Part shown: positions 29,343 through 64,000 of the stretch, piece by piece | Layout of the letters: every line of letters starts with the position of its first letter | Numbering within the stretch: the first letter of the stretch is position 1 | DNA from: Nocardia sp. BMG111209 | Lineage (GTDB): Bacteria; Actinomycetota; Actinomycetes; Mycobacteriales; Mycobacteriaceae | Reading direction: 5' to 3' | DNA length: 64,000 nucleotides | NCBI RefSeq assembly: GCF_000381925.1 | Contig: NZ_KB907307.1 | Coordinates: forward strand, 1,178,001-1,242,000 | Notes under the pieces: generated by a model | What the model was told of the DNA's origin: nothing | Database searches by the model: none | Seen by the model: the letters and a program-made list of their open reading frames with translations, nothing else | Program-made: the position numbers and the translations under genes

Positions 29343-29358
29343 CCCGAGGCGTCCCCCG

Positions 29359-48288: not shown

Positions 48289-48846
48289 TCAGACGGTGAG
48301 CTCCCGGGTGATGGCGTCGACGAAGTCCGGCAGATCCGCCGGCTCGCGGGAGGTGATCAGGGTCCAGCCGTCACTGTCGTCGCGGACCACCGGCCGGTCC
48401 ACCCAATCACCGCGCGCGTTGCGGATATCGGTGCTCAGCGACGGATAGGACGTCAGCCGCTTGCCGGGCAGTACCTCGGCGTCGACCAGCAGCCAGGGGC
48501 CGTGGCAGACGGCCGCGACCGGTTTCCACGCGGCGGTGGTGGCCCGGACCAGCCGTTGCGCGGCGTCGTTGGCCCGCAGCCGATCGGCGTTGACGGTACC
48601 GCCGGGCACGATCAGCATGTCGATCCGGCTCGCGTCCACGGCGTCGATGGTGGTGTCGGGCTGTATCTCCTCGTCGGGCTCCAGATCGTGGCGGTAGGTC
48701 CGCACGGGCGCGTCCTGTTCCGCCGCGTGGATCACCAGCGCGCCGCGCTCCCGCAGCCGGTCGCGCGGTACCACCAGCTCGTCGTGCTCCACGCCGGTGT
48801 TGGACGTGACGATGAGGACACGGGCATTCTGCAGCTCTCCGGACAT
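48289..48846 (-). CDS. DJ-1/PfpI-family stress protein
   Basis: This 185-residue protein of the DJ-1/PfpI class I amidotransferase-like fold has the nucleophile-elbow cysteine in AVCHGPWLL and an upstream MLIVPGGTVN. General-stress proteins of this group act as glyoxalases or deglycases. ATG 48846 follows an AGGAAGGAA site; another ATG six codons upstream lies on that site and is unlikely. It follows the DoxX-LEA gene by 14 bp and should be transcribed with it from the SigB-type promoter at 50104-50128. Confidence 0.9.
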   Translation of the reverse strand: MSGELQNARVLIVTSNTGVEHDELVVPRDRLRERGALVIHAAEQDAPVRTYRHDLEPDEEIQPDTTIDAVDASRIDMLIVPGGTVNADRLRANDAAQRLVRATTAAWKPVAAVCHGPWLLVDAEVLPGKRLTSYPSLSTDIRNARGDWVDRPVVRDDSDGWTLITSREPADLPDFVDAITRELTV

Positions 48847-48860
48847 GGACGTTTCCTTCC

Positions 48861-50036
48861 TCATCGGGACTGTGCGCGGCGGTGGGCCGCATCGGACAGC
48901 TGGTCGCGGCGGTCGCGGGCCAGCTCGCGGAGTTCCGCGCTGCGATCACGAGCGGTGCCCAGGAGATCGCCGCCGCGGTCGCGAGCGTTGTCGAACAGGT
49001 CCTCGCCGCGGTCCCGGGCGGAATCGAACAGATTCCCGCCCCGATCGCGCGCGGTGTCGACCAGACCGGCCCCCCGGTCGCGGGCGGTGCCGAACAGATC
49101 GCCGCCGCGGTCCCGGGCCGTGTCGAAGAGGTCCTCGCCGCGACCCCGGGCGGTGCCGAACAGGTGCCCGCCGCGACCACGGGCGTTGCCGAGGAGGTCT
49201 TCGCCGCGGTCCCGCGCGTCGTCGAACAGGTTCCCGCCGCGCTCCCGGGCGGAATCGAACAGGTCTCCGCCCCGATCCCGGGCCGTGTCGAGCAGGTCTC
49301 CGCCCCGATCGCGTGCCGTGTCGAGCAGGGCCGGACGGTGGTCGCGGGCGCTGTCGGCGAGTTCGGCGCCGCGGTCGCGGGCGACGTCGAGCAGATGTGT
49401 GCCTCGGCGCGTCGCGGCCGAGCCGGCCCGCGTCCCGAATTCGCGGGTGGAATCGGCGAGGTGGTGGGTGGTGTCGGCGAGGTGTTCGCCCCGATCCCGC
49501 AGTGCCGCACCGAGTTCCGGCCCGCGCTCGCGGACGGTCTCCGCGGTCTCGGCCAGCTGGGCGCGCAGCGGCCCGGTCTCGCCCCGGCGCCGGGCCAACG
49601 CCCGCCGGCCGCGCCACGCCAGCGACGGCCGGCCCTCGCGGTCGGTCGAGGCGATCAGCAGGCCGCCGAGCAGGCTGGCATCGGTCAGGAATCCGGCCCG
49701 CTTGACGCTGCGGCGCTCGGGATCCTTCTCGTTCCAGAAATCGTGTTCGGTCATCGTCGTCGGCACGGCCGTCGCGGCCAGCGCCAGCGCCGACAATCGC
49801 GGGAACCGGCCCAGTGCGAGCAGGACACCCCCGCCGACGCGGATCGCCGCGTTGATCTCGACGATCCGCGCGGGGTTCTCCCGCAGATAGCCGGCGACAC
49901 CGCGCGGCAGCACGTGTTCACCACGCCGGACCAGCCGGGTGGCGGCCTCGGTCCGGGACGACGGATCGGTGAAGGCGGCGATGCCGTCGGCGACGAAGGT
50001 GGTGGCCAACAACGGGCGTGCGATGCGCCGGAGCAT
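48861..50036 (-). CDS. DoxX-family membrane protein with fifteen LEA-like 11-residue repeats
   Basis: This 391-residue protein has a DoxX-type membrane domain (residues about 1-140, with FWNEKDP and several helices). The second half is built of 11-residue repeats with consensus D-T-A-R-D-R-G-G-D-L-F. Fifteen complete units run from residue 217 to 381, with decayed units before them. Hendecad repeats of this charged-and-small type are the pattern of group 3 LEA and apolipoprotein-like proteins, which fold into amphipathic helices on membranes or upon drying. It is the first gene of an operon with the PfpI protein, behind a SigB-type promoter. ATG 50036 has a GAAAGGA site. Confidence 0.85.
   Translation of the reverse strand: MLRRIARPLLATTFVADGIAAFTDPSSRTEAATRLVRRGEHVLPRGVAGYLRENPARIVEINAAIRVGGGVLLALGRFPRLSALALAATAVPTTMTEHDFWNEKDPERRSVKRAGFLTDASLLGGLLIASTDREGRPSLAWRGRRALARRRGETGPLRAQLAETAETVRERGPELGAALRDRGEHLADTTHHLADSTREFGTRAGSAATRRGTHLLDVARDRGAELADSARDHRPALLDTARDRGGDLLDTARDRGGDLFDSARERGGNLFDDARDRGEDLLGNARGRGGHLFGTARGRGEDLFDTARDRGGDLFGTARDRGAGLVDTARDRGGNLFDSARDRGEDLFDNARDRGGDLLGTARDRSAELRELARDRRDQLSDAAHRRAQSR
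48894..49388 (-). repeat. 33-bp tandem repeats coding for hendecads
   Basis: Fifteen in-frame 33-bp units encode the 11-residue repeats of the DoxX-LEA protein. Units vary at the DNA level but keep their length exactly, so selection acts on an 11-residue helical period. Long open frames on the other strand here are shadows of this repeat. Confidence 0.9.
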
Positions 50037-50103
50037 GACGGGATCCTTTCGGTGGTACGCGATGGCGTCCGAGGGCGTCGTGGACGGGCTGTTCGAAGCG
50101 CGG

Positions 50104-50128
50104 CTACCCCGATTCCGGCCGCCTACGC
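50104..50128 (-). promoter_or_regulatory. SigB/SigF-type promoter of the DoxX-LEA/PfpI operon
   Basis: Minus strand GCGT, 15 bp, GGGTAG; 67 bp before the ATG at 50036. It is back to back with the promoter of the second Dps gene. Confidence 0.6.
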
Positions 50129-50178
50129 ACCCGGGTGTCGACCTGCAATCGCCGCCGCCGGGCCGGTGGCCCGTACCT

Positions 50179-50203
50179 GATTCGCCGCCCCGAATACGGG
50201 TAG
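50179..50203 (+). promoter_or_regulatory. SigB/SigF-type promoter of dps copy 2
   Basis: GATT, 15 bp, GGGTAG, with the -10 42 bp before the Dps ATG. It nearly repeats the arrangement at the first Dps gene. Confidence 0.75.
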
Positions 50204-50245
50204 CTCGCCCTGCGTACGAACTCGATCAGAGAGGAGACCGCCGAG

Positions 50246-50719
50246 ATGGCTCATCCGATCACCACGGAGCTGGACCGGGAACAACAGCGCATCGCCGGTG
50301 ACGCCTTGTGCGACACCGTCATCGATCTCATCGATCTGGCGTTGATCGGTAAACAGGCGCATTGGAACGTCATCGGCCCGCGGTTCCGCTCGGTCCATCT
50401 GGCGCTGGACGAATTGGTCTTCGCGGTAAGGGAATTCACCGATTCCGCCGCCGAGCGCGCGACCGCCGTCGGGGTGAGCCCGGACGGCCGCGCCCGCACG
50501 GTCGCCGAACGCACCGGCGCCGAGGGCTTCCCGGTCGGCTGGCAGCGCGACGACGAGGTCACCACCGCGATCGTCGCGAACCTCACGGCGGTGATCCGCC
50601 GGTTGCGCAAGCGCAGCGAGGCCGTCGAGAAGGCGGACCCGGTCACCCAGGATCTCCTGCTCGGCATCATCGCCCGTCTGGAGCAACTGCACTGGATGTG
50701 GCAGGCCCAATCGGCCTAG
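50246..50719 (+). CDS. dps: Dps-family ferritin-like protein, copy 2
   Basis: This 157-residue Dps protein is about four-fifths identical by eye to copy 1 at 26748, with the same ferroxidase residues (KQAHWNV and LALDELVFAVREF). One change is the extra Cys22 (DALCDT), absent from copy 1. AGAGGAG precedes the ATG. The UsfY-like membrane gene follows 25 bp on and may be co-transcribed. Two near-duplicate copies could form mixed dodecamers or answer to different stresses. Confidence 0.95.
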   Translation: MAHPITTELDREQQRIAGDALCDTVIDLIDLALIGKQAHWNVIGPRFRSVHLALDELVFAVREFTDSAAERATAVGVSPDGRARTVAERTGAEGFPVGWQRDDEVTTAIVANLTAVIRRLRKRSEAVEKADPVTQDLLLGIIARLEQLHWMWQAQSA

Positions 50720-50744
50720 TACGGCTACCCGGAAGGACGTCGAC

Positions 50745-51050
50745 ATGACGAGACCCGACGCACGACCCTTCGCCCGGATCCCCGCCACCTATCGGGCCCG
50801 GCGCACCGACCCTGCCCGGACCCACACCGGCCAGGGCCTCGAGGACAACCGGAACATCCCCGCATTCGTCCTGTGCTTCCTCGGCGTGGTGGCCCTGGGA
50901 GCGGCGCTGACCGCGGCGGGCTACGGCTTCGCCGGCTGGGCGGTGATCGCCGGGATCGTCTGCGCGGTCTGCCTCGTCGGCGGCGTCGCCTGGCTGCTGA
51001 TCGAACGCCGCCGCATCCGGGCCACCGAATTCGACCGCCAGGGGCACTGA
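50745..51050 (+). CDS. Small two-helix membrane protein, UsfY-like
   Basis: This 101-residue protein has a polar N-terminus (TRPDARPFARIPATYRARR), then two transmembrane helices at residues about 40-62 and 66-88 and a basic end (IERRRIRATEFDRQ). The size, helix pair and Arg-rich end recall UsfY, a small protein encoded next to rsbW-sigF in mycobacteria; I am only moderately sure. It follows the second Dps gene by 25 bp with an AAGGA site and probably shares its stress promoter. Function unknown. Confidence 0.6.
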   Translation: MTRPDARPFARIPATYRARRTDPARTHTGQGLEDNRNIPAFVLCFLGVVALGAALTAAGYGFAGWAVIAGIVCAVCLVGGVAWLLIERRRIRATEFDRQGH

Positions 51051-51121
51051 CCGCCGTCCCGGCGAATACGGTGTGCGTCGCCGACCCTGCGGTGACGCAC
51101 ACCGTCCACCGGATGCAGAAT

Positions 51122-52918
51122 TCAGCGCCGCACCGCGGTGACGAACTCCTGCGCCTTGGTTTTCGCGCCCTGGAGCATCAGATGCCAGGCATCGGGGTCG
51201 CCGTGCAGCACGGCCTGGGCGGTCGACTCCAGCTGATCCCAGGTGGCGTGCGGCGGGATCGGCGGCACCTCCGGATCGCAGCGCACATCCAGCAGCATCG
51301 GCCCGTCGGCGGCGAAGGCCTGCTGCCAGGCGTCGGCGAGTTGATCGGGATGGTCGACGGCGATCGACGGCACGCCGAAGCCGCGCGCGACGTCCGCGTA
51401 GGAGATGTCCGGAAGAGACTGGGACTCTTCGAATTTCGGCGCGCCGCCCATCGCGCGCAGCTCCCAGGTGACCTGGTTGAGATCGTTGTTGTGGAAGACG
51501 CAGATCACCAGCCGCGGATCGCTCCAGCGGTCGCGATAGCGCGCGATGGTCATCAGTTCGGCCAGGCCGTTCATCTGCATGGCGCCGTCGCCGACCAGGG
51601 CGACCGCGGGCCGGTCCGGGTGGGCGAACTTCGCGCCGATCGCGTACGGCACACCGGGACCCATCGTGGCCAGCGTGCCCGACAGCGAGCCGCGCATCCG
51701 GCCGCGGAAGCGCAGGCAGCGGGCATACCAGTTGGTGGACGAGCCGGAATCCGCTGTGACGATGGCGTTCTCGGGGATGCAGCGCGACAGCTCCCACACC
51801 ACCCGCATCGGGTTGACCGGTTTCGCGTCGAGCATCGACTGCCGTTCGACGGTTTTCCACCAGCGGGCGACGTTCGCCTCGATCGTCTCGCGCCAGGAGC
51901 CGTCCGTCTTGGCGGTCAGCAACGGAATCAGTTCCGTCAGAGTGGCTTTCGCGTCACCGAGCAGGGTCACCTCGGTCGGGTAGCGCATGCCGATCATGGC
52001 GCCGTCGATATCGATCTGGACGGCCCGCGCCTGATCCAGATCGGGCAGGAACTGGGTGTAGGGGAAGCTCGAGCCGATCATCAGCAGCGTGTCGCAATCG
52101 CGCATCATCTCGTAGCTGGGCCGGGTGCCCAGCAGGCCGATCGACCCGGTCACGAACGGCAGATCGTCGGCGAGCACATCCTTGCCCAGCAACGCCTTCG
52201 CCACACCCGCGCCGGTGAGGTCCGCGACCTCCACCACGAGATCCGCGGCGTCGCGCGCGCCCTGGCCGATCAGGATCGCCACCCTGGATCCGGCGTTGAG
52301 CACCGCCGCGGCGCGCTCGATCTCGGACCGGGCGGGCACCACCGTCGGGTGCATCACCTGCGGCGGGCTCGACGGCACCTGTTTGAAGGCGTGTTCCGGC
52401 GGCCGATACGGCTCCTCCTGCAGATCCGACGGGACGATCACCGCCGTCGGCGCGCGGCGTGCGCGGGCGATCCGGAAGGCGCGGTCCAGCGCGTTGGGCA
52501 GCTGGCTGGCGACGTTCACCTCGACGAGATATTCGCTGGCCACATCCTTGAACAGCGACTGGAGATCGACCTCCTGCTGATAACTGCCGCCCATCGCGCT
52601 GCGCGCGGTCTGGCCGACGATCGCCACCACCGGCACATGGTCCAGTTTGGCGTCGTACAACCCGTTCAGCAGATGGATCGCGCCCGGACCGGACGTCGCC
52701 GCGCACACCCCGACCTCGCCGCTGAACTTCGCGTAGCCGGTCGCCTCGAACGCCGCCATCTCCTCGTGCCGCGCCTGGACGAAGGCCGGACCCTCGCCGG
52801 CGGCCCGCCCGAACGCCGCGATCAAACCGTTGATGCCGTCACCGGGGTAGCCGAACACCTGCCGGACACCCCACTCCCGCAGGCGCTGCAGGACATAGTC
52901 ACCCACTTGCTGTGTCAT
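51122..52918 (-). CDS. PoxB-like thiamine-diphosphate-dependent pyruvate oxidase/dehydrogenase
   Basis: This 598-residue ThDP enzyme has the N-terminal Glu motif RHEEMAAFEATGYAK, a central domain and a C-terminal ThDP/Mg motif GDGAMQMNG...NNDLNQV. The overall pattern matches PoxB/pyruvate dehydrogenase (cytochrome)-like proteins, close to acetolactate-synthase relatives. It would decarboxylate pyruvate, giving acetate or acetyl phosphate, as in stationary-phase metabolism. ATG 52918 begins MTQQVGDYV. It is divergent from the 42-aa/enolase genes, and both directions have SigB-type promoters whose -35 boxes are 4 bp apart. Confidence 0.9.
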   Translation of the reverse strand: MTQQVGDYVLQRLREWGVRQVFGYPGDGINGLIAAFGRAAGEGPAFVQARHEEMAAFEATGYAKFSGEVGVCAATSGPGAIHLLNGLYDAKLDHVPVVAIVGQTARSAMGGSYQQEVDLQSLFKDVASEYLVEVNVASQLPNALDRAFRIARARRAPTAVIVPSDLQEEPYRPPEHAFKQVPSSPPQVMHPTVVPARSEIERAAAVLNAGSRVAILIGQGARDAADLVVEVADLTGAGVAKALLGKDVLADDLPFVTGSIGLLGTRPSYEMMRDCDTLLMIGSSFPYTQFLPDLDQARAVQIDIDGAMIGMRYPTEVTLLGDAKATLTELIPLLTAKTDGSWRETIEANVARWWKTVERQSMLDAKPVNPMRVVWELSRCIPENAIVTADSGSSTNWYARCLRFRGRMRGSLSGTLATMGPGVPYAIGAKFAHPDRPAVALVGDGAMQMNGLAELMTIARYRDRWSDPRLVICVFHNNDLNQVTWELRAMGGAPKFEESQSLPDISYADVARGFGVPSIAVDHPDQLADAWQQAFAADGPMLLDVRCDPEVPPIPPHATWDQLESTAQAVLHGDPDAWHLMLQGAKTKAQEFVTAVRR

Positions 52919-52958
52919 CTGGTCTCCCGTCCGGTCCGTTGCTCGTGTCGGCGGGCGG

Positions 52959-52983
52959 ATACCCGGCGGCCGCGCACCCAATC
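52959..52983 (-). promoter_or_regulatory. SigB/SigF-type promoter of the PoxB-like gene
   Basis: Minus strand GATT, 15 bp, GGGTAT; about 40 bp before the ATG at 52918. Confidence 0.75.
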
Positions 52984-52987
52984 AGCT

Positions 52988-53012
52988 GTGTGTGCCGGTC
53001 CGGACGGGGTAG
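52988..53012 (+). promoter_or_regulatory. SigB/SigF-type promoter of the 42-aa/enolase genes
   Basis: GTGT, 15 bp, GGGTAG; 44 bp before the ATG at 53057. It is back to back with the PoxB promoter. Confidence 0.75.
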
Positions 53013-53056
53013 TCGCCGCACATTCCCCGGCTCCACCTCGTACGAAGGGTCAGGTC

Positions 53057-53185
53057 ATGACACGTTCCGATTCCGTACCGTCCACTCGGGCCGTCGATCT
53101 GCCGGACCCGATGCCGCCGCGTGGCCCGAAGGCCACGAATCGGTTGCGGCCTGTCGCGCAGAGCCCGGCCGGCGGTGCGCGTTGA
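53057..53185 (+). CDS. Small hypothetical protein (42 aa)
   Basis: ATG 53057 follows GAAGGGTCAG and gives a 42-residue Arg/Pro-rich peptide (DLPDPMPPRGPKATNRLRP). Its stop overlaps the TTG of the enolase-superfamily gene (TTGA). It lies 44 bp behind a SigB-type promoter. The length and overlap suggest a translated leader gene that couples translation of the enolase. No family is recognised. Confidence 0.5.
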   Translation: MTRSDSVPSTRAVDLPDPMPPRGPKATNRLRPVAQSPAGGAR

Positions 53186-54273
53186 CCACCCGGGAGGTCC
53201 GGCTCGAGGATCCGGGTTCCGTTGCGGTGTACCGGTTTCCGACACCCGGACCGGAATCCGACGGCACCCTGGCCTGGACCTCGACCACCGCCGTCACCGT
53301 GCGGCTCGAGGCCGGTGGCCGCAGCGGTCTGGGCTGGACCTACAGCACCCCCGCGGCGGCCGCGATCATCCGGGACGAACTGCTGCCGATCCTGATCGGC
53401 CGCTCGCCCTGGGACATTCCGCAGTGCCGGCTCGAAATGCGCCGGGCCTGCCGCGATTTCGGCACCACCGGGGTCGTCGCGCAGGCGCTCAGCGCCGTCG
53501 ACATCGCGTTGTGGGATCTGAAGGCGCGGTTGCTGGACACCTCACTGGCACGGCTGCTGGGGGGCGTGCGCGCCGCCGCGCCGGTCTACGGCTCCGGCGG
53601 CTTCACCAATCTGCCCGACGAGGATCTCGACGAACAGATCACCTCCTGGCTGGCCGCCGGCTGTACCGCGGTCAAGATCAAGATCGGCCGCGACACCGCC
53701 CGCGACCTGGACCGCCTGGTGCGCGCCGCCGACCTCGTCACCGGCCGGGCCGAACTCATGGTCGACGCCGCCGGCGCCTACCCCACCGGATATGCCCGCC
53801 GGGTCGGGACCGCGCTGGACGAACTGGGTGTGACCTGGTTCGAGGAACCGGTGCGCAGCGAGGACCCGGCAGGCCTGGCGGTGGTCCGCGACGGTGTCGA
53901 ATGTGATGTCGCCGCAGGCGAATACATCTACGATCCGATGGGCGCCGCGGCCCTGCTCGACGTGGTGGACTGCCTGCAACTGGACGTCACCCGCTGCGGC
54001 GGGTACAGCGGATTCCTGGAATGCGCCGCACTGGCCGCCGCGCACGGCCTCGAGGTCTCCGCCCACTGCGCGCCCGCGCTGCACGCGCCGGTGGCCGCGG
54101 CCGTGCCCAATCTCCGGCACGTGGAATGGTTCATCGACCACGCCCGGCTCGAGCCGCTGCTCGTCGACGGCGTCCCCGAGGTCGTCGACGGCCTGCTGCC
54201 GCGCGCGGGCGAGCACGGTGACTGCGGTCACGGCATGACCATCGCGGCCAGTGCGGCGGAATTCCGGATCTGA
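53182..54273 (+). CDS. Enolase-superfamily (mandelate racemase/muconate lactonizing type) enzyme
   Basis: This 363-residue protein is a TIM-barrel of the enolase superfamily. The KxK base motif is TAVKIKIG, the metal ligands are Asp in LMVDAAGAY, Glu in WFEEPV and Glu in AAGEYI, and a His base candidate is in AHCAPALHAP. These enzymes abstract a proton next to a carboxylate; dehydration or racemisation of a sugar acid is typical. The start is TTG 53182, overlapping the stop of the 42-aa gene. The substrate cannot be told. Stress-promoter control of such an enzyme is unusual. Confidence 0.85.
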   Translation: MTTREVRLEDPGSVAVYRFPTPGPESDGTLAWTSTTAVTVRLEAGGRSGLGWTYSTPAAAAIIRDELLPILIGRSPWDIPQCRLEMRRACRDFGTTGVVAQALSAVDIALWDLKARLLDTSLARLLGGVRAAAPVYGSGGFTNLPDEDLDEQITSWLAAGCTAVKIKIGRDTARDLDRLVRAADLVTGRAELMVDAAGAYPTGYARRVGTALDELGVTWFEEPVRSEDPAGLAVVRDGVECDVAAGEYIYDPMGAAALLDVVDCLQLDVTRCGGYSGFLECAALAAAHGLEVSAHCAPALHAPVAAAVPNLRHVEWFIDHARLEPLLVDGVPEVVDGLLPRAGEHGDCGHGMTIAASAAEFRI

Positions 54274-54440
54274 GCCCGGCGCGGTCGCGGCGCCGATACC
54301 CGTGCCGGGCGTTCACGGATATCTCGGCCGCGGGCAGGCGTGCCGCGAGCATGGCTGGGTATCCTGACGAAAGTGTGGAAGAGCGATGTTCGCGATGTCC
54401 GTCCGGCGGGAGGGTCCGGGCAGCGAGGAGCGCAAGCGGT

Positions 54441-55400
54441 ATGAGCATCGAGTTCGACAGCACCAGCCTGGCGGCGACCGAGGAGTTCCTCAACCGGAAC
54501 TACACCACCATGCGGATCGGCAACGACACATCCGGCCCGGTCCGCAGCACGGTCGTCCGGGAGCGGCTGGGCGATGTGAACCTGGATCGGCTGGACCTCG
54601 GCTTCGACATGAGTTACGACGCCGAGCCGCTGGGCCGGATCTGCCTGTGCGAGGTCGAAACCGGCTGGGTGGAGGAGAACTACCACGACGCCGGCACCGA
54701 TTACTTCGGATCGGGTGAGATCGCCGTCCTGACCCCGCCGGATCTGCCGTATTCCGGGGTGATCCACACCGCTCGTTATCGCATCACCATGTTCGATCCG
54801 GCCGATCTCACGCGCGTCGCCGAGGTCGAGGCGGGCATTCCGGTGGAGTTGACCGGCCACCGGCCCGTCTCGGTCGCGGCCGGTCGGCGGCTGGCCGCGA
54901 CGCTCGCGCACCTGCGGCAGCTCGTCGGCGACTACAACGGGCAGGTGCCGCCGCTGGTGGCGGCGACCGCCACGCAGTTCCTCGCCGCCACCGTGCTGGA
55001 CACCTTCCCGAACACCGCGTCCGCGGAGCTGACCGCCACCGACCGGGCCGACGCGCATCCGGCCGCCCTGCGCCGGGCGCTGGCGTACATGGAGGGCCGG
55101 GTGCACGACGACATCGCGGTCGGCGATATCGCCGCGGCCGCCTACATCTCGGTGCGCGCCCTGCAATTGGCGTTCCGCCGCCATCTCGGCACCACGCCGA
55201 TGGCCCATCTGGCCCGCTTGCGGCTACAGGGCGCGCACGAACAACTCACCGACGGCAAGGGCGCGACCGTCTCGGCGATCGCGACCGACTGGGGATTCGG
55301 CCACCCCGGCCGGTTCGCCGCGCTGTACCGGCGGCACTACGGCCGCTCACCCGCCGCCACCCTCGGCGACCGGCCGGATCCGCCCGATACCGCCGGCTAG
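54441..55400 (+). CDS. AraC-family regulator (AraC-like ligand-binding N-terminus)
   Basis: This 319-residue regulator has a long N-terminal region (FDMSYDAEPLG, then GSGEIAVLTPPDLPYSG) of the AraC-binding-like type and a C-terminal AraC domain (VGDIAAAAYISVRALQLAFRRHLG and VSAIATDWGFGHPGRFAALYRR). ATG 54441 follows a GAGGAG site; the frame is open upstream but lower in third-base GC. Its likely target is not adjacent; it follows the enolase gene and converges with the aldo/keto reductase. Confidence 0.88.
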   Translation: MSIEFDSTSLAATEEFLNRNYTTMRIGNDTSGPVRSTVVRERLGDVNLDRLDLGFDMSYDAEPLGRICLCEVETGWVEENYHDAGTDYFGSGEIAVLTPPDLPYSGVIHTARYRITMFDPADLTRVAEVEAGIPVELTGHRPVSVAAGRRLAATLAHLRQLVGDYNGQVPPLVAATATQFLAATVLDTFPNTASAELTATDRADAHPAALRRALAYMEGRVHDDIAVGDIAAAAYISVRALQLAFRRHLGTTPMAHLARLRLQGAHEQLTDGKGATVSAIATDWGFGHPGRFAALYRRHYGRSPAATLGDRPDPPDTAG

Positions 55401-55409
55401 GTCCGCGCC

Positions 55410-56410
<1,001 letters not shown>

Positions 56411-56436
56411 ACCGTACGCGTCCCCCTCGCGACCGT

Positions 56437-56457: not shown

Positions 56458-56470
56458 CTAGACTGCCCGG

Positions 56471-57070: not shown

Positions 57071-57074
57071 GCCC

Positions 57075-57512: not shown

Positions 57513-57522
57513 AAGCATTTGC

Positions 57523-57551
57523 CTAATCTGGATTAGATAACCTAATTTAGG
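57523..57551. promoter_or_regulatory. Candidate MarR operator pair
   Basis: CTAATC-TG-GATTAG (57523-57536) and CCTAATTTAGG (57541-57551) are two palindromes sharing CTAAT, in the 87 bp between the MarR gene and the NTF2-like gene. They probably control the latter. Confidence 0.65.
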
Positions 57552-57599
57552 TGCCGGTGCCGGATCTCCGGCGCCACCGTTCGCGAGAAAGTAGCCGCA

Positions 57600-58016
57600 G
57601 TGATCACCGCTACCTGGAAGCCGCTGGATCCCGACCTGGCCGCATTCCTCACCGCATTCGAAAGTAGTTCCGCCACACCGGAATCCGATCAGGGCGAGCA
57701 GTTCGCCGAACAGTTCGTCACCGCGGACCCCAACCGGGCGATCGTGGTCACCCGGGAGGCCCTCGTCGGTTCCCTGCCGATGCGCCGCCGCCTGTTCGAA
57801 TCGGCGGGGCTGGGGCACGCGGTCTGCGTGGCCTCCGCTCAGCTCGATCTCGACGAACACCACGCCCTCGTCACGACGGACTGGGACACCCCGCGCGCCG
57901 GGGCCGAACCGATCCGGCTCGAATCCACCTATCTGATCCGCCGCGACGACGAGGGCCCGCGAATCCTGGTCTACCTCAACCACCGTGACATCGTCGCCGT
58001 GCTCGGCGCACTGTGA
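57600..58016 (+). CDS. NTF2-like (SnoaL-type) hypothetical protein
   Basis: This 138-residue protein has an N-terminal helix, the FVTADPNRAIVVTREALVG pattern, and a beta-rich second half (DEHHALVTTDWDTPR, ESTYLIRRDDEGPRILVYLNHRD) that fits an NTF2-like fold, as seen in SnoaL and nuclear-transport-factor domains. GTG 57600 is used. Its role is unknown; it may bind or convert the small molecule that induces the MarR/TetR pair. Confidence 0.7.
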   Translation: MITATWKPLDPDLAAFLTAFESSSATPESDQGEQFAEQFVTADPNRAIVVTREALVGSLPMRRRLFESAGLGHAVCVASAQLDLDEHHALVTTDWDTPRAGAEPIRLESTYLIRRDDEGPRILVYLNHRDIVAVLGAL

Positions 58017-58076
58017 CCACGGTGCTCGGCGCACGGTGACCGGCCCGGCGCCGCATGACATTCCGGAAACGACGGT

Positions 58077-58101
58077 GGGTGGTGGCGCCGGGAGCGGGTA
58101 G
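58077..58101 (+). promoter_or_regulatory. SigB/SigF-type promoter of the 95-aa gene
   Basis: GGGT, 15 bp, GGGTAG; only 9 bases separate the -10 from the ATG at 58111, so the mRNA is probably leaderless. The downstream TCGCCGGAC is nearly repeated before the methyltransferase ATG at 61130. Confidence 0.6.
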
Positions 58102-58110
58102 TCGCCGGAC

Positions 58111-58398
58111 ATGCCGGAAATTCGAGAAGTAGTGCGATGCCGCCCGGGTCAGAACGCCCTGGCCCGCGGGTACTACGAATGCGATTGCGGCCGCGGTCAC
58201 TGGTGCCTCACCGAGGGCGGCGGACGGGAGATGCCGGCGTTGCCCGGGGAATGCCCCGGCGCCGAGTGGGTATTGCAACGCCTGACCCCGCACCCACCGC
58301 CGGACGCCGCGGTGCGGCCCGAGAACCCCTGGTATCCGGGCAGTTTCGACTCGAACGGAGGAAGGCATGCCCCAGCAGCAATGGAGCGACAAGCGTGA
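58111..58398 (+). CDS. Small Cys-containing hypothetical protein
   Basis: This 95-residue protein has Cys and Trp near its N-terminus (YYECDCGRGHWCLTEGG), a possible metal site, and a Pro-rich second half (RLTPHPPPDAAVRPENPWYPG). No family is recognised. It starts at ATG 58111 directly behind a SigB-type promoter and overlaps the next gene by 32 bases. It is probably a stress-induced small protein co-expressed with the Rho_N protein. Confidence 0.65.
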   Translation: MPEIREVVRCRPGQNALARGYYECDCGRGHWCLTEGGGREMPALPGECPGAEWVLQRLTPHPPPDAAVRPENPWYPGSFDSNGGRHAPAAMERQA

Positions 58399-58696
58399 GC
58401 GTCAGTACGAGCACATCAAGGATTCCGCGGAGGAGCGCGGGGCGAGCACCCGCCGCGCCGAGGAGATCGCCGCCCGGACGGTGAACAAGAATCGCGCCCG
58501 CAGCGGCGAATCGAAGACCGCGAGCCGCACGTCCGTCGAGGACATGTCGCCGCAGCGCCGCGGTGGTCTGCGCTCGGGGACCGACCGGCCCAAGGGACCG
58601 ACCCGCGACCAGCTCTACAACGAGGCCCGGCAGCGCAACATCGAGGGCCGATCGAAGATGACCAAGGGCGAACTGGCCCGCGCGCTCGGACGATAA
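58367..58696 (+). CDS. Small basic protein with Rho_N-like C-terminal domain
   Basis: This 109-residue protein has an N-terminal charged helix (WSDKRERQYEHIKDSAEERG), the TRRAEEIAARTVNKNRARSGE region common in actinobacterial plasmid-stabilisation-type proteins, and a C-terminal Rho_N/SAP-like segment (PTRDQLYNEARQRNIEGRSKMTKGELARALGR). It likely binds nucleic acid. The ATG at 58367 follows GGAGGAAGG and lies within the previous gene. The terminator hairpin at 58711 follows. Confidence 0.85.
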   Translation: MPQQQWSDKRERQYEHIKDSAEERGASTRRAEEIAARTVNKNRARSGESKTASRTSVEDMSPQRRGGLRSGTDRPKGPTRDQLYNEARQRNIEGRSKMTKGELARALGR

Positions 58697-58710
58697 CGCG
58701 GACGACACAC

Positions 58711-58742
58711 GGGGCCGGGTGGCATATTCGCCACCCGGCCCC
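58711..58742. terminator. Strong terminator hairpin between converging genes
   Basis: GGGGCCGGGTGGC and GCCACCCGGCCCC form a perfect 13-bp stem with loop ATATTC. It separates the Rho_N gene (ends 58696) from the convergent 103-aa gene (ends 58795) and can work in both directions. Confidence 0.85.
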
Positions 58743-58794
58743 GTTCCGTCCGCTCGCCGATCCCGCGCGGCGGTGCGCGGAATCGGCGAGCGCC

Positions 58795-59106
58795 TCAGCG
58801 GCGGCGCTGCACCCGGACCATCCGCCGGGCGGCCGGCCGCCGGCGGCGCGGCGCCCGGGATACGGGGGTGACGGATACCGGCTGCCCGCCGACCGGACTC
58901 CCGGCGGCGATCGCCGATCCCGGTTCCACCGGTTCGGGGAACTGCCGTTCCAGCTCCGCGAGCAGAATCGAGCGCCGATTCCCGTCGGGCTCGTCCGAGA
59001 TCTCCGCGTACGGCAACGGCCCGTACCGGACCGCGTGGACGAGCACGATATCGGCTACTCCGTCCGCGGTCGTGCGCATGAGACGCATACCCGGGTGGAT
59101 GTTCAT
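58795..59106 (-). CDS. Small basic hypothetical protein
   Basis: This 103-residue protein starts MNIHPGMRLMRTT. A small SH3-like beta domain is suggested by ADIVLVHAVRYGPLPYAEISD. The C-terminal third is very Arg-rich (RAPRRRRPAARRMVRVQRRR) and could bind nucleic acid. ATG 59106 has a GGAGAGGTGA site; the longer frame upstream is rejected because it covers the promoter. A SigB-like promoter lies at 59160-59184. Function unknown. Confidence 0.65.
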   Translation of the reverse strand: MNIHPGMRLMRTTADGVADIVLVHAVRYGPLPYAEISDEPDGNRRSILLAELERQFPEPVEPGSAIAAGSPVGGQPVSVTPVSRAPRRRRPAARRMVRVQRRR

Positions 59107-59159
59107 CGAGTCACCTCTCCTCGGGCCGAACAGCTCGGGCGTTCGATCACGTGCGCGGT

Positions 59160-59184
59160 TTACCCCGGTCCGCCGCGGACATGC
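59160..59184 (-). promoter_or_regulatory. SigB/SigF-type promoter of the 103-aa gene
   Basis: Minus strand GCAT, 15 bp, GGGTAA; 53 bp before the ATG. The remaining DNA up to 59403 holds the sigma-factor promoter, where I see no GGGTA motif. Confidence 0.5.
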
Positions 59185-59403
59185 GGAACGAGCAGGACAC
59201 GAGATCGTTGCGATGCCCCACCGGCGTGCCGCCGGGTGCCATGCTGGTGGTGCTGGTTGAACAGTCAGCCGCTGCTCGGGGCCGTACCGCTCTCGCACCG
59301 GCCCATACCGCCTTCCCGATCGTGCACGACCCTGCGGCGACTCCGCACTCTCGTGACAGTCAGGGGTTCGGGCGATCGGCCGGAGAAGGGACTCCCGGTC
59401 ACT

Positions 59404-60237
59404 ATGAACACCGGACGTAACGAGGGTCCGGCCGCACATCCCGCCCGCGGCCGCGACCCCTACGATCACCTCGAACCCGACCTGATCGCCCTGCACGCCA
59501 TGCCGTGGGAGCATCCGGACCGGGCCCGGTTACGTGCGCACGTCATCGACCGCTGTCTGCCGCTGGCCGACCATCTCGCCGCCCGGTATCGCGGCCGTGG
59601 CCAATCCTTCGACGATCTGCAACAGGTCGCGCGGGTCGGACTGGTCCTGGCCGTCGACCGCTACGACCCCGCGCGCGGCGATTCCTTCCTCGCCTTCGCG
59701 ATCCCCACCGTCACCGGGGAGTTGCGGCGCTACTTCCGCGACTACGGCTGGACCGTCCGGGTCCCGCGCCGGTTGCAGGATCTCCAGCAGAAGATCACCA
59801 CCGCCACCCCGCGCCTGGCCCAGCAACTGCGCCGCACCCCGACCCGTGAGGATCTCGCCGTCGACCTCGAGATCACCGCCGACGACGTGGATCAGGCGGC
59901 CCTCGGCGCCTACTGCTACCGCACCGAATCCCTCGAGGCGTTCGCCACCGACGACGAGGGCGTCGGCCCGCTGCCCGTCGGCGGCACACTCGCCGTCGAC
60001 GAGGACGGATACCAGCTGCTGGAGGACGCGCTCGCGGTCGCACCCCATCTGGAGACGTTGTCCGCCGACGACCGGCACGTGCTCATCCTGCGGTTCTACG
60101 CGCGGCTGTCCCAGCAGCAGATCGGCGAGATGCTGGGGATGTCCCAGGTCAAGGTGTCGCGCATCCTCGCCCGCATCCTCGGCGAGCTGCGCGACAACGC
60201 GCTCGCCGAGGTCGGCGCCGCGGAGGACGCGCCCTGA
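59404..60237 (+). CDS. SigB/SigF-family alternative sigma factor
   Basis: This 277-residue sigma factor of the SigF/SigB/SigG group has region 2 (LADHLAARYRGRGQSFDDLQQVARVGLVLAVDRYDP and FLAFAIPTVTGELRRYFRDYGW), region 3 (RLAQQLRRTPTREDLAVDL) and region 4 (VLILRFYARLSQQQIGEMLGMSQVKVSRILARIL). Members recognise GNNT, 14-16 bp, GGGTA promoters, which is the motif before many genes nearby. ATG 59404 is used; the frame upstream is not coding-like. No anti-sigma or anti-anti-sigma gene is adjacent, so its control must lie elsewhere. Confidence 0.93.
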   Translation: MNTGRNEGPAAHPARGRDPYDHLEPDLIALHAMPWEHPDRARLRAHVIDRCLPLADHLAARYRGRGQSFDDLQQVARVGLVLAVDRYDPARGDSFLAFAIPTVTGELRRYFRDYGWTVRVPRRLQDLQQKITTATPRLAQQLRRTPTREDLAVDLEITADDVDQAALGAYCYRTESLEAFATDDEGVGPLPVGGTLAVDEDGYQLLEDALAVAPHLETLSADDRHVLILRFYARLSQQQIGEMLGMSQVKVSRILARILGELRDNALAEVGAAEDAP

Positions 60238-60259
60238 ACGGGGCCGTCACCGGATCCGC

Positions 60260-60499
60260 TCATCCGGCCTCCGGGTCGGCGCGGCGCCGGCGGCGGTGGC
60301 TGGTGTCGCACAGGGGATAGCTGCCCGACCGGTGACAGGTGCAGATCGCGACCAGGAAACGGTCGCAACACAATTCGCGGCCGTCGGGGGCGATCAACCG
60401 TACCGGTCCCTCGATCAGGATCGGGCCGTCGGCGGTCATCGTCACCCGGCGCCGGGCCGAATCGGCCACGGCCGGTGACTCATCGGGGGTGGCCGGCAC
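60260..60499 (-). CDS. CDGSH iron-sulfur domain protein
   Basis: This 79-residue protein has the CDGSH [2Fe-2S] ligand pattern: CTCHRSGSYPLCDTSH, that is CxC, then Cys and His with the YPLCDTSH end. An N-terminal region (GPVRLIAPDGREL) adds beta strands. Such proteins carry electrons or clusters. It overlaps the methyltransferase gene by 20 bases and is the third gene of the oxygenase-methyltransferase-CDGSH operon. The tail is Arg-rich. Confidence 0.9.
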   Translation of the reverse strand: MPATPDESPAVADSARRRVTMTADGPILIEGPVRLIAPDGRELCCDRFLVAICTCHRSGSYPLCDTSHRRRRRADPEAG

Positions 60500-61130
60500 G
60501 GATCACCACCAATTCCTCGGCGCACTGGCCGGGTTCGATCACACCGGCCGCCGCCAGCCAGGCCGACCGGGAGCGCAGCACCGGACCGAAGGCGACCGTG
60601 CTGCGCGCCGCCACCACCGCGTCCAGTCCCCCGGCGGTGAGCATCTCGACCGTCAGCGCGGGATCCGCCAGGGCGGACTGCACGATGAGGCCCGCGCCGG
60701 ATTCCCGCAACAGCCGAGGTAGCAAGCGGCACAGCGGATCCAGCACCGATCGCCCGGTCGGCCCGGCCGCCCAGGCCCGCGCGGCGCGCCGGACGTCGTC
60801 GGCGGCGCAGGCGGGCACATAGGGCGGGTTGGCGAGCACCAGATCGTAGCGACCGCGGGGGTGGGTGTGCCGAATATCGCCGTGCAGCAACTCGACTCGG
60901 CCCCACCACCGCAGACTGTTCAGCCACACCGACAGCAGCGCCCGGCGCGAGATGTCCATCGCCGTCACCCGTCCGGCGCCGGACCGCAGCGCGGCGACGG
61001 TCAGCACACCGGAACCGGTACCCACGTCCAGGACCCGCCCACCCGCGGGGACGGCTGCGCCCGCGGCGGTCAGCAACATCGCGGTATCCGACTGTGGCCG
61101 GTAGACCCCCGGCGCACGAAACACGATCAT
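60480..61130 (-). CDS. HemK/MTQ2-like class I methyltransferase
   Basis: This 216-residue methyltransferase has motif I VLDVGTGSGVLTVAALRSG, the acidic MDISRRAL and NPPY (VLANPPYVPA), the motif of N-methyltransferases acting on glutamine or adenine amino groups. HemK-type enzymes methylate Gln in release factors, but it lacks their N-terminal domain and is short, like MTQ2. The ATG overlaps the stop of the oxygenase-like gene (ATGA). The overlap with a CDGSH gene suggests a dedicated partner substrate rather than a release factor. Confidence 0.88.
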   Translation of the reverse strand: MIVFRAPGVYRPQSDTAMLLTAAGAAVPAGGRVLDVGTGSGVLTVAALRSGAGRVTAMDISRRALLSVWLNSLRWWGRVELLHGDIRHTHPRGRYDLVLANPPYVPACAADDVRRAARAWAAGPTGRSVLDPLCRLLPRLLRESGAGLIVQSALADPALTVEMLTAGGLDAVVAARSTVAFGPVLRSRSAWLAAAGVIEPGQCAEELVVIRAGHPR

Positions 61131-62149
61131 GGTCGGCGACTACCCTGTGCCGCGGCATCCACCGCGGGCAGCGGTTCCCGCAGCGAACTGCGGCCCGCCG
61201 CCCAATGGTCCAGTAATTGCCGCGCCACCCGGCCCTCCAGTAATTCGGTGGCCTGAATTCCGAAGACCACCGAATCGAGCAGGCCCGGATCCTGCCGGAG
61301 CAGATCACCGATCACCGCGCGCATGACCTGTTCGTGCACGGCGTCCGCCACCACATGCTCGGCGTAGAACCGCACACAGGCGGGTGCGGCATCCCATCGC
61401 CGCAGGGTGTCGACCATGCGTTTCGACGCCGGGGAGGAGGTGATCTCGGTCGACGCGAAATGCCCGACCAGCGCACCCCGCCACCGCCGGTGCAATCCGA
61501 ACAGCGACATCATGTTCACCAGCGCGAGCATCGGCGCGGGAACGATATCCAGATAATGCAGATAGCCGGACTCCAGCCCGGCCCCGTCGAGCAGATCGGC
61601 GTACAACCGGGAATGCACCCGCTCCCCGTGCCCGCCGCCGAATTCGTCGAATTCCACCGCGACCAGCGCCGCCTTGGCGTCACCGTGCAGCCGGGGAATC
61701 ACCCAGGCATACGGATCCGCCTCCTTGAGGTGATAGATCGAGCGGTGCACGAAATATTCACGCAGCTGCCACCATTGCCCGTCCCGCCGGAGAAATGCGC
61801 CGACTCCCGTGGGTTCGGCGGGTTCGGACAACAATGCGGCGAGTTCCCGATCGAGATCGGCGCCCCCGGTCACGTCCCGGCGCAGGGCGTCGAGAAATCG
61901 TTGTTCCAGCCGGGCCCGAATCGTCAGCACCCGGATATCCCATTCCCGCTCCGGATCCACCGCCGCGAAACCGTGATAGTGCAATTCGTAACACAGGTGC
62001 AGCGCCAGGTGCAGATCGTCGCCGTAGGGATCCGCGTCCGGCACGGCAGGGTCCGCGGCGGCGGCCGTACCGTCGCGCAGCAGCGCCACGACCGCGGCGG
62101 ACAGCGGGCCGCGTGGGGCCGGCAGCGAAATCGGTGCAAACGTCGGCAT
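61127..62149 (-). CDS. Iron-containing redox enzyme, haem-oxygenase-like fold
   Basis: This 340-residue protein belongs to the haem-oxygenase-like diiron oxidase/oxygenase (HDO) group. Likely diiron ligands lie in VEFDEFGGGHGERVHS and in FYAEHVVADAVHEQ; another Glu/His set may be in the N-terminal HLCYELHYHG. Such enzymes use oxygen on amino acids or lipids. ATG 62149 lies 9 bases after a GGGTAG, so it is probably leaderless. It is the first of three overlapping genes. The substrate is unknown. Confidence 0.85.
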   Translation of the reverse strand: MPTFAPISLPAPRGPLSAAVVALLRDGTAAAADPAVPDADPYGDDLHLALHLCYELHYHGFAAVDPEREWDIRVLTIRARLEQRFLDALRRDVTGGADLDRELAALLSEPAEPTGVGAFLRRDGQWWQLREYFVHRSIYHLKEADPYAWVIPRLHGDAKAALVAVEFDEFGGGHGERVHSRLYADLLDGAGLESGYLHYLDIVPAPMLALVNMMSLFGLHRRWRGALVGHFASTEITSSPASKRMVDTLRRWDAAPACVRFYAEHVVADAVHEQVMRAVIGDLLRQDPGLLDSVVFGIQATELLEGRVARQLLDHWAAGRSSLREPLPAVDAAAQGSRRP

Positions 62150-62158
62150 ATCGCCCGA

Positions 62159-62183
62159 CTACCCCGCCGCACGCCGCCGACAC
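62159..62183 (-). promoter_or_regulatory. SigB/SigF-type promoter of the oxygenase-methyltransferase-CDGSH operon
   Basis: Minus strand GTGT, 15 bp, GGGTAG; 9 bases before the ATG at 62149. Confidence 0.75.
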
Positions 62184-62190
62184 AGGCCGC

Positions 62191-63372
62191 TCACGGCGTC
62201 GGGACCTCGGGTGGCGGCTGCTTGTCCAGGCCGGGGAACACGATTTCCCGGACCAGCAGCAACACCGCGGCCGCCAGCGGAATCGCGAGCAGCGCGCCCA
62301 ATATCCCGAGCAGCGATCCCCCGATCAGCACCGCGACGACCGTGACCACCCCGGGCACCTCGACCGTGCGGCCCATGATCCGGGGTGCGAGCAGATAGTC
62401 CTCGACCAGCCGCAGCACCAGGAAGAATCCCACGGTCGCCAGGCAGACCGGCATCGAGACGGTCAGCGCCACCACCGCGATCACGATCCCGGCCAGCGTG
62501 GACCCCACCAGCGGGATCAGGTCGAGGACGGCCACCAGCACCGCGAGCACCAGCGGATACGGCACCCCGAACGCCGCGAGCCAGATGAAGGTCAGCACAC
62601 CCGTGATTAGCGAGATCAGCAGATTGCCCAGGACGTATCCGCCGACCTTGGCGAAGATGGCATCCCCGATCAGGATCGCGCGCGGCCGCCGATGCTGCGG
62701 GAACAATCGGTACAGATTCGCGCGCAGGCTCGGGAAACAGGCCGAGAAATAGGCCGTGAGCACGAAGACCACGACGGTGCCGGTCACCGCGCCGAACACG
62801 ACCTTGCCCGCACCGACCAGCCCGTGGGCCAGATCGGCGGATTTCGTGTCGATACCCTGCTGGACCTTCTCGTCCAGATGCAGCCGGTCGGCGGCCGACC
62901 GGAAGGCCGGATACGAATTCTCCAGCTGATGCAGCCGATCGGGTGCGTGGTCGACCAGGGCCTGTCCCTGATCGACCAGTGGCGTGATCAGGGCCGCGAG
63001 AAATCCCGCGAGCGCGGCGACGATCACCAGCAGCACCAGCGTGACCGCCGGTCCGCGACCGATCCGGTGGCGGGCCAGCCACGACACCGCCGGTTCCATC
63101 CCGATGGCCAGGAACAGCGCCGCGACGACCAGCAGCAGCGCCTCGTGGGCCGCGAACACCACCTTCACCGCGCACACCGTCGCCAGCACCCCGCCCGCCC
63201 CCGCGACGCCGATCATGAACGGCGAGCGCCGATCGAACCGCCGGCCCGGCGTGCCGAGCGGATGGTCCGCGTCGCTGAGTTCGGCCGCCGCGGCCTCCGC
63301 GGCGGTGATGGGTTCGGGCTCCCCCTGCGGATGCGGCTGGCCCACCCATTCGCTGTGTTCGCTATCGCTCAT
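62191..63372 (-). CDS. AI-2E/PerM-family membrane permease
   Basis: This 393-residue permease has an N-terminal hydrophilic stretch (residues 1-45) and seven or eight membrane helices, including the family segment FAKVGGYVLGNLLISLITGVL, then LVAVLDLIPLVGSTLAGIVI. PerM/AI-2E proteins are putative exporters of small molecules or ions; some work as sodium/proton antiporters. ATG 63372 (MSDSEHSEW) has a GAAGGTGG site. A SigB-type promoter is 36 bp upstream, so it is stress-induced. It is divergent from the catalase. Confidence 0.9.
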   Translation of the reverse strand: MSDSEHSEWVGQPHPQGEPEPITAAEAAAAELSDADHPLGTPGRRFDRRSPFMIGVAGAGGVLATVCAVKVVFAAHEALLLVVAALFLAIGMEPAVSWLARHRIGRGPAVTLVLLVIVAALAGFLAALITPLVDQGQALVDHAPDRLHQLENSYPAFRSAADRLHLDEKVQQGIDTKSADLAHGLVGAGKVVFGAVTGTVVVFVLTAYFSACFPSLRANLYRLFPQHRRPRAILIGDAIFAKVGGYVLGNLLISLITGVLTFIWLAAFGVPYPLVLAVLVAVLDLIPLVGSTLAGIVIAVVALTVSMPVCLATVGFFLVLRLVEDYLLAPRIMGRTVEVPGVVTVVAVLIGGSLLGILGALLAIPLAAAVLLLVREIVFPGLDKQPPPEVPTP

Positions 63373-63407
63373 ATCCACCTTCGAGAACGGGTTCCGGCAC
63401 GGCGGCA

Positions 63408-63432
63408 ATACCCACGCCGACCATTTCGACAC
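63408..63432 (-). promoter_or_regulatory. SigB/SigF-type promoter of the PerM-like gene
   Basis: Minus strand GTGT, 15 bp, GGGTAT; about 35 bp before the ATG at 63372. Confidence 0.7.
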
Positions 63433-63509
63433 CGGCAATTCCGGCGGCGGTCGGCGGGCCACCGCACGGCATCCGATCGGACACGATGCGTCCCCGGGCA
63501 GCGCGGCGT

Positions 63510-63534
63510 GATTGACCTTCGAATCCACGGGTAG
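63510..63534 (+). promoter_or_regulatory. SigB/SigF-type promoter of the catalase gene
   Basis: GATT, 15 bp, GGGTAG; 39 bp before the GTG at 63574. Confidence 0.75.
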
Positions 63535-63573
63535 CACGCGGTTGCGCAGCCACCTGGATCGGGAGGATGAATC

Positions 63574-64000
63574 GTGGACGATGTCTCGGACCCCAAGCAG
63601 CAACAGCTGGACCGGTATCGCGTCGATCGGGAGCAGGGCCGGCTCACCACCCAGCAGGGTGTGCCGGTGGAAAGCACCGACGACGCGCTGTCGGTCGGTC
63701 AGCGCGGCCCGACGCTGCTGGAGGACTTCCACGCCCGGGAGAAGATCACCCACTTCGACCACGAACGCATCCCGGAGCGGGTGGTGCACGCCCGCGGCGC
63801 CGGCGCGTACGGCCGGTTCAAGCCGTACGACGATCGGCTCGCGCAGTACACCGCGGCCCGGTTCCTGACCGATCCGTCGGTGGAAACGCCTGTGTTCGTG
63901 CGCTTCTCGACGGTCGGCGGCTCCCGCGGATCCGCGGACACGGTCCGCGACGTCCGCGGTTTCGCGACGAAATTCTATACCGCGCAAGGTAATTACGATC
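63574..64000 (+). CDS. Monofunctional haem catalase, N-terminal part; runs off the right edge
   Basis: The first 142 residues of a catalase are present. The frame starts with GTG 63574 after a GGGAGGATG site and reads [16 protein letters not shown]. Catalase landmarks are [23 protein letters not shown], with the essential His of the VVHARG motif, [29 protein letters not shown], and an Asn near the end (QGNYD). The N-terminal extension before the core suggests the large-subunit, HPII-like class. It detoxifies hydrogen peroxide. It has its own SigB-type promoter and faces the PerM gene. Confidence 0.95.

Follow-up and report, generated by a model that had tools for sequence, protein, structure and literature searches.

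A putative island of SigB/F-type stress promoters in Nocardia sp. BMG111209 and its candidate sigma factors

Promoters of the SigB/SigF/SigG class, together with a stress regulon that includes dps, katA and DoxX annotations, are already established in Mycobacterium smegmatis, and the class is also found in Streptomyces. In the parts of the M. smegmatis study considered here, the SigF consensus is given as GTTT-N(14-19)-GGGTA, some sites lie 8-11 nt from the start codon, many targets are numbered near sigF itself (MSMEG_1758-1804), and without sigF expression drops for genes annotated Dps, KatA and DoxX, as well as for many listed with GTTT-N15/16-GGGTA (PMC4694148). Genes for a hemerythrin, an FAD-linked oxidoreductase, a cytochrome P450, an arginine decarboxylase, a molybdopterin-binding oxidoreductase and a putative methylase are lowered as well (PMC4694148, same parts). 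Transcription starts mapped under hypoxia likewise give a GGGTA -10 element for SigF (PMC6448022, passages covered). For Streptomyces, the passages covered report that almost all of 24 promoters are recognised by at least two of nine SigB homologues (PMC8346170). Here, we study sites of the same build, a GNNT -35 element followed by GGGTA after exactly 15 bp (N15), in a 64,000-nucleotide stretch of the Nocardia sp. BMG111209 genome (C1:1178001-1242000, C1 being contig NZ_KB907307.1; genome 9.14 Mb, 5 contigs), hereafter the window, which also encodes a sigma factor at position 59404. A literature search by title and start of abstract, with coverage mostly without subscription papers, found no study of a SigB/F regulon in Nocardia, and a search combining SigF-dependent with CDGSH found no papers.

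Very probably, these sites represent SigB/SigF/SigG-class promoters and serve a stress regulon read by a sigma factor of the SigB/F family. RNA polymerase carrying such a factor would bind GNNT and GGGTA 15 bp apart, and transcription would begin a few bases downstream of GGGTA, under stress. The -35 (GNNT/GTTT) and -10 (GGGTA) elements, the 14-16 bp between them, and the upstream position and orientation are those of the class. Elements, spacing, position and conservation are read from the sequence, while we infer that the sites fire, and that they do so under stress. The recognisable targets are mostly protective or metabolic: Dps, catalase, DoxX, PfpI, a poxB-like enzyme and an operon of a haem-oxygenase-like redox enzyme with a CDGSH protein.

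By annotation, candidate targets in the window overlap with the M. smegmatis SigF regulon in Dps, KatA and DoxX (PMC4694148, in the parts considered). Unlike M. smegmatis, Nocardia shows a spacing peak at 15 and has seven SigB/F-family sigma genes. The -35 GTTT is rare here, being found in 1/15 independent own sites against 13/39 in other Nocardia; as this difference reaches only P 0.08, a lineage-specific shift away from GTTT is not claimed. Streptomyces coelicolor, with nine SigB homologues, resembles Nocardia in its paralogous sigma factors with overlapping promoters and in the GNNT-type -35 of its osmotic-stress group; it differs in that spacings vary in the table considered and that the passages covered describe no promoter island around sigma genes (PMC8346170). 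In S. coelicolor, more than one SigB-like sigma factor uses the SigB-like promoter of dpsA, whose -10 is GGGCAT where the dps sites of the window have GGGTAG (PMC3184153, passages covered).

The motif in the window and its conservation

A preliminary description of this DNA had listed ten sites with an exact 15-bp gap, each oriented towards a gene. All ten are present, nine with GNNT and the one before dps1 (26686) with GATA; the minus-strand coordinates of that description differ by one from those given here because it counted the base after GGGTA. Three further exact matches had gone unlisted: one at 54338, which is likely real, a doubtful one at 58249, and one at 29316 with no gene found downstream in its orientation.

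Altogether, the exact GNNT-N15-GGGTA pattern occurs 12 times in the window, compared with 2.69 (standard deviation 1.56) in dinucleotide shuffles, whose largest count is 7 (0/100 reach 12). The excess is tied to one spacing and one region. Between 48001 and 64000, 11 GNNT-GGGTA pairs stand at N15, as opposed to 0-3 for each of the 14 alternatives from 8 to 22 (1, 1, 1, 2, 0, 1, 0, 11, 1, 1, 1, 3, 2, 0, 1 in order), while positions 1-48000 hold a single N15 match. A dyad scan of the last 16 kb, covering 5-mers at 28 spacings after G..T and only pairs seen at least 4 times, returned GGGTA at 15 as the most extreme pair (11 vs 1.01 expected; Poisson P 1e-8; runner-up 2.7e-5). A matrix trained on 39 independent sites lying upstream of genes in other Nocardia ranked nine of the ten listed sites 1 to 9 in the 64 kb, and dps1 12th; this test is not wholly independent, since some training sites precede orthologs of window genes. 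Taken singly, the sites at dps1, 58249 and 29316 could still be chance. The 29316 match arises from a palindrome at 29310-29370, GGGTAATACCCGGGTATTA, in which inverted GGGTA elements overlap immediately ahead of a small gene on the minus strand (29027-29314). Rank 10 in the matrix scan is a minus-strand GTTT-N15-GGGAA at 20091.

Ten of the 11 N15 sites in the 48-64 kb region precede a gene on the same strand; the remaining one, 58249, is intragenic, and the 54338 site overlaps the longest reading of its open reading frame (ORF). This bears on the possibility that the motif is a transcription-factor binding site. A two-part motif of fixed spacing could be a dimer site, but the motif is asymmetric, points at a gene in those 10/11 cases, in many instances stops about 10 nt short of the start codon, and matches in its letters the published SigB/F promoters (PMC8346170, PMC4694148 and PMC6448022, each in the parts covered). 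We regard a transcription-factor site as very improbable.

The closest relative found, Nocardia aurantia, holds the same cluster, with insertions, on contig NZ_WEGI01000007.1, in the order dps2, 101-amino-acid (aa) gene, poxB, enolase, an extra sigma gene, AraC-type gene, MarR, 95-aa, 109-aa and 103-aa genes, sigma gene, CDGSH, methyltransferase, redox enzyme, PerM and catalase. Ten promoters were compared as footprints (DoxX, dps2, poxB, 42-aa/enolase, AraC-type, 95-aa, 103-aa, redox, PerM and catalase). The -35 G and T are kept in 20/20 cases, the middle bases in 19/20 and GGGTA in 50/50, so that 89/90 element letters are conserved compared with 104/150 spacer letters, and the gap is 15 bp in all ten.

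Conservation beyond N. aurantia was counted over the 170 bp before and the 30 bp after each start, as extrapolated from protein matches, with loci L171-L173 outside the analysis. N15 sites precede 23/27 Nocardia orthologs of poxB (of 29 loci, a pair at 63% identity being left out) and 21/26 of dps (26/29 loci; three were dropped by a match-position filter). They also precede 6/7 orthologs of the 103-aa gene (7 of 9 relatives counted; 8 were submitted, L200 was not, and one more was left out) and 3/4 of the 95-aa gene (4 of 8 relatives; L187-L190, with E above 1e-4, were left out). Other spacings upstream of orthologs give counts of 0 to 7, the 7 at N14 of dps arising partly because GGTTT can be read two ways. 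The core of the predicted regulon is poxB and dps and, less uniformly, the redox operon and the 103-aa and 95-aa genes.

Both small genes are thinly spread, with matches in 9 (95-aa) and 10 (103-aa) of 116 genomes, own included. The 103-aa promoter is kept in relatives down to 39% protein identity. For the 95-aa gene, exactly 10 nt separate the end of GGGTA from the ATG, both in this genome and in the three motif-bearing relatives, down to 44% identity; its transcripts are therefore likely leaderless. In N. aurantia and in genome G086, the relatives of this gene have open frames of only 72 aa, and the last ~23 residues of the 95-aa protein may be a shifted tail.

The redox promoter is more variable. 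By eye, many relatives have GGGTA about 10 bases before the ATG and a -35 at 14 or 15, and among orthologs from other genera of the family (27 of 59 genomes with match) the G..T-GGGTA peak lies at N16 (10/27; 15: 3; 17: 4).

Putative promoter islands across the genus and within the genome

N15 sites accompany SigB/F sigma genes elsewhere in the genus. At 29 sigma loci, one per genome, from 58 other Nocardia genomes, 42 N15 sites were counted, compared with a mean of 8.4 over the 14 other spacings; merging alike contexts leaves 31 vs 6.4, distributed over 23/29 loci. A control of 17 loci around distant AI-2E paralogs gave 4 vs 2.3. Stretches of ~20 kb around the redox gene in 19 other Nocardia hold 63 N15 sites vs 17.1 (47 vs 13.4 after merging). 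In the genome under study, an N15 site lies within 1.5 kb of 5/7 SigB/F genes and of 0/2 other sigma genes.

The window holds, within a 14-kb stretch, one of at least two islands of putative SigB/F-type promoters in this Nocardia. Of the 72 sites of the stricter form GHDT-N15-GGGTAG in the genome, the window has five and C1:566-614 kb nine, so that 14 fall in ~0.7% of the genome. The second island (C1:566-616 kb) carries a SigB/F gene of its own (L177) and copies of window genes: poxB2 (97%), enolase (95%), and the 101-aa (77%), 109-aa (93%) and methyltransferase (77%) genes. Its N15 sites are followed by genes for an FAD-linked oxidase, a short-chain dehydrogenase, a CBS protein, a hemerythrin, a DUF6480 protein and an Orn/Lys/Arg decarboxylase, and a molybdopterin oxidoreductase and a P450 are found in the vicinity. 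Several of these gene names recur in Table 1 of the M. smegmatis SigF regulon (PMC4694148, parts considered). Both divergent promoters were copied along with poxB2 (C1:581398-583185), which, together with the 97% identity, points to a recent cassette duplication. The divergent site beside poxB is present at only 2/27 other Nocardia poxB loci.

Between poxB2 and the enolase copy, the same promoter opens a gene for a 980-aa FAD-linked oxidase (C1:578315-581257), whose stop overlaps the start of the enolase copy. The 42-aa ORF of the window is 79% identical to the first 39 residues of this oxidase, and the likeness between window and second-island DNA ends at 53147 and returns at 53171, right ahead of where the enolase gene begins. 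Read most simply, the 42-aa ORF is probably the 5' stub of an oxidase gene lost from the window copy, the promoter being left on enolase; alternatively, the oxidase may have been inserted into the second island. N. aurantia has a similar short promoter-enolase arrangement with a diverged stub. Oxidase residues 840-905 weakly match the N. aurantia promoter-enolase stretch; this was not used, being thought, unchecked, to be an arginine-rich chance match. The proposal that the motif links small genes to stress can be upheld for the 95-aa and 103-aa genes, whose promoters are conserved, and not for the remnant-like 42-aa ORF.

Several observations weigh against the promoter interpretation or narrow it. 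Genome-wide, GNNT-N15-GGGTA occurs 444 times compared with 380 for a reversed-pattern control, a modest excess, and the strict form shows none (72 vs 77). The 360 kb of flanking chromosome hold 18 pairs at N15 vs a mean of 14.9 over 14 other spacings, without a clear peak. Among the nine strict sites of the second island, one is intragenic and two have no called gene downstream. The redox promoter shows N15 in 12/29 Nocardia orthologs (29 of 100 other Nocardia genomes with match), with 14 or 16 bp in several of the rest. Although kept in N. aurantia, the promoters of PerM and catalase are weakly conserved elsewhere in Nocardia (3/12 and 4/12; 12 closest of 29 loci each). For Dps, KatA and DoxX, the sites in M. 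smegmatis read GGGCA, GGGAA and GGGAA, not GGGTA, so that the agreement lies in genes, not letters (PMC4694148, parts considered). Finally, no N15-type site was found in the 300 bp before the 59404 gene, for which autoregulation was dropped on this ground.

The strict genome-wide count and the flanking counts speak for the alternative of chance matches in a GC-rich genome, picked by eye. For the set as a whole, chance is hardly credible and was rejected on the local spacing control, the unbiased dyad scan, the other-Nocardia matrix and the footprints. The motif excess is local, and genome-wide the motif is near background. At matrix score 12, the 360-kb flanks give 13 matches and the window 12. 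A genome-wide consensus search was rejected as a regulon list, as background matches dominate. Measured against expectation, as the preliminary description had proposed, the motif stands out in the window over shuffled sequence, and across the genome at most modestly over the reversed pattern. Its promoter class, orientation and stress regulon agree with the spacing controls, the footprints, the genus-wide poxB, dps, 103-aa and 95-aa sites and the M. smegmatis annotation overlap.

The sigma factor at 59404 and its paralogs

The genome encodes seven SigB/F-family sigma factors by TIGR02980, that at 59404 included; two further sigma-70 genes (31 and 29% identity) are set apart by the tree. The 59404 product passes the TIGR02980 cut-off narrowly (234.8 vs 234.35 bits) and scores lowest of the seven (others 256 to 313.6). 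For SigF proper (PRK07122, cut-off 372 bits) it falls short with 252.5 bits, and none of the six own paralogs reaches this cut-off either, the nearest being L179 (C1:2243925) with 360.2 bits on a start-truncated reading.

The preliminary description had linked the sites to the 59404 factor. Its gene lies within the island, N15 motifs and SigB/F-family sigma genes co-locate across the genus, and an ortholog accompanies the cluster in N. aurantia as well. However, among the matches listed from 58 other Nocardia genomes, ordered by E-value, none exceeds 53% identity to 59404, yet genomes of this same set do carry the poxB and dps promoters. Across 84,980 species' genomes, a scan that depends on exact short words returned one close relative, in N. 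aurantia, and in the tree the 59404 factor groups only with two N. aurantia genes, a clade of just three on a long branch (99/100). Together with the lowest model score of the seven paralogs and the cross-recognition of promoters by Streptomyces SigB homologues (PMC8346170, passages covered), this makes it unlikely that the 59404 factor regulates the island and its promoters, and the proposed link is not supported in that form. Seen only in the N. aurantia lineage while the core promoters are genus-wide, this sigma factor need not be their reader.

Since the core promoters recur in other Nocardia, they are most likely read by a widespread SigB/F paralog, with L179, the nearest to SigF, as a candidate, or by several with overlapping preference. 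The 59404 factor would be a lineage-specific paralog that may share promoters with them. In one further SigB/F paralog, L174 (C2:725 kb), a GATT-N15-GGGTAA site begins 71 bp upstream of the start codon, which suggests auto- or cross-regulation.

In a stretch that we take to be region 2.4, the 59404 product has RDYGWTVRVPRR, as opposed to RD.TWA.RVPR in the six own paralogs. No Pfam match to an RsbW-like anti-sigma factor was found in four neighbouring genes (58111, 58367, 58795 and 60260), the rest of the genome not being searched. In N. aurantia, a second sigma gene (L061:5307-6050), 63% alike, sits between the enolase and the AraC-type gene, where the window has less than 80 bp.

Features of the window and the putative regulon

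The features are collected in Table 1.

Table 1. Candidate promoters and associated genes in the window (positions counted from the first nucleotide of the window).
Feature	Position	Strand	Evidence
GATA-N15-GGGTAG before dps1 (gene 26748-27221)	26686..26709	+	no orthologous promoter identified for comparison
PfpI gene, 4-bp overlap downstream of DoxX gene	48289-48864	-	Pfam DJ-1_PfpI
DoxX domain + repeat tail gene, 391 aa	48861..50036	-	Pfam DoxX
GCGT-N15-GGGTAG, DoxX promoter	50105..50128	-	both elements kept in N. aurantia; matrix rank 7
GATT-N15-GGGTAG, dps2 promoter (gene 50246-50719)	50179..50202	+	N. aurantia footprint; Nocardia orthologs; matrix rank 2
poxB-like thiamine-pyrophosphate enzyme, 598 aa	51122..52918	-	NCBIfam PRK08273, 983.7 bits (cut-off 724)
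GATT-N15-GGGTAT, poxB promoter	52960..52983	-	Nocardia orthologs; matrix rank 1
GTGT-N15-GGGTAG, divergent from poxB, before 42-aa ORF/enolase	52988..53011	+	kept in N. aurantia and second island
42-aa ORF, probable stub	53057..53185	+	likeness to oxidase N-terminal residues over 39 aa
Enolase-superfamily gene	53182-54273	+	
GCGT-N15-GGGTAT, likely AraC-type regulator promoter	54338..54361	+	N. aurantia GAGT-N15-GGGTAT, spacer largely different; matrix rank 14
AraC-type regulator ORF	54351-55400	+	HTH_18
GGGT-N15-GGGTAG, 95-aa gene promoter (gene 58111-58398)	58077..58100	+	relatives with same spacing and distance
GAAT-N15-GGGTAT inside 95-aa gene, 94 bp before 109-aa gene (doubtful)	58249..58272	+	conserved, as is surrounding coding sequence
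GCAT-N15-GGGTAA, 103-aa gene promoter (gene 58795-59106)	59161..59184	-	N. aurantia footprint; relatives
SigB/F-family sigma factor, 277 aa, lineage-specific paralog	59404..60237	+	TIGR02980; tree
CGGT-N15-GGGTAG before methyltransferase gene (60480-61130)	61141..61164	-	CGGT, GGGTA and following GTCG kept in N. aurantia
Redox operon: haem-oxygenase-like enzyme, methyltransferase, CDGSH	61127-62149, 60480-61130, 60260-60499	-	
GTGT-N15-GGGTAG, redox operon promoter	62160..62183	-	N. aurantia footprint; Nocardia orthologs
GTGT-N15-GGGTAT before AI-2E/PerM gene (62191-63372)	63409..63432	-	N. aurantia footprint
GATT-N15-GGGTAG before catalase (63574 to window end)	63510..63533	+	N. aurantia footprint; matrix rank 3

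The 54338 site likely joins the promoter set, with GTG at 54375 as the likely start of the AraC-type gene. The site before the methyltransferase gene departs from the consensus in its first base. The PfpI and DoxX genes probably share one transcript. The repeat tail of the DoxX gene is long and aligns with the N. aurantia copy in several overlapping matches; it had been called LEA-like, and no match to an LEA family was found in Pfam or NCBIfam. Outside the promoter cluster, two large convergent genes (41317-44736 and 44752-48156) apparently share ~67% DNA likeness in inverted orientation, as seen in cross-matches via an N. aurantia stretch (L164). Scanning the window for Rfam families (gathering threshold) and for tRNAs yielded no matches.

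On the evolutionary scale, we tentatively suggest, as a possibility rather than a favoured view, that stress-promoter islands of Nocardia gain genes by duplication and lose others, with turnover of the SigB/F sigma genes that they contain. The core promoters and their 15-bp spacing would then predate the adjoining sigma gene, and regulon and regulator would evolve separately; the 59404 factor might be a recent arrival, changed in its region 2.4 letters, that takes over part of an older common regulon or insulates it. More generally, an island of this kind need not be read by the sigma factor that it encodes. With the sites described here, a predicted SigB/F regulon that can be tested at the sequence level is now available for Nocardia, and two uncharacterised small protein families (95-aa and 103-aa) as well as the haem-oxygenase-like/methyltransferase/CDGSH operon are tied to this putative regulon.

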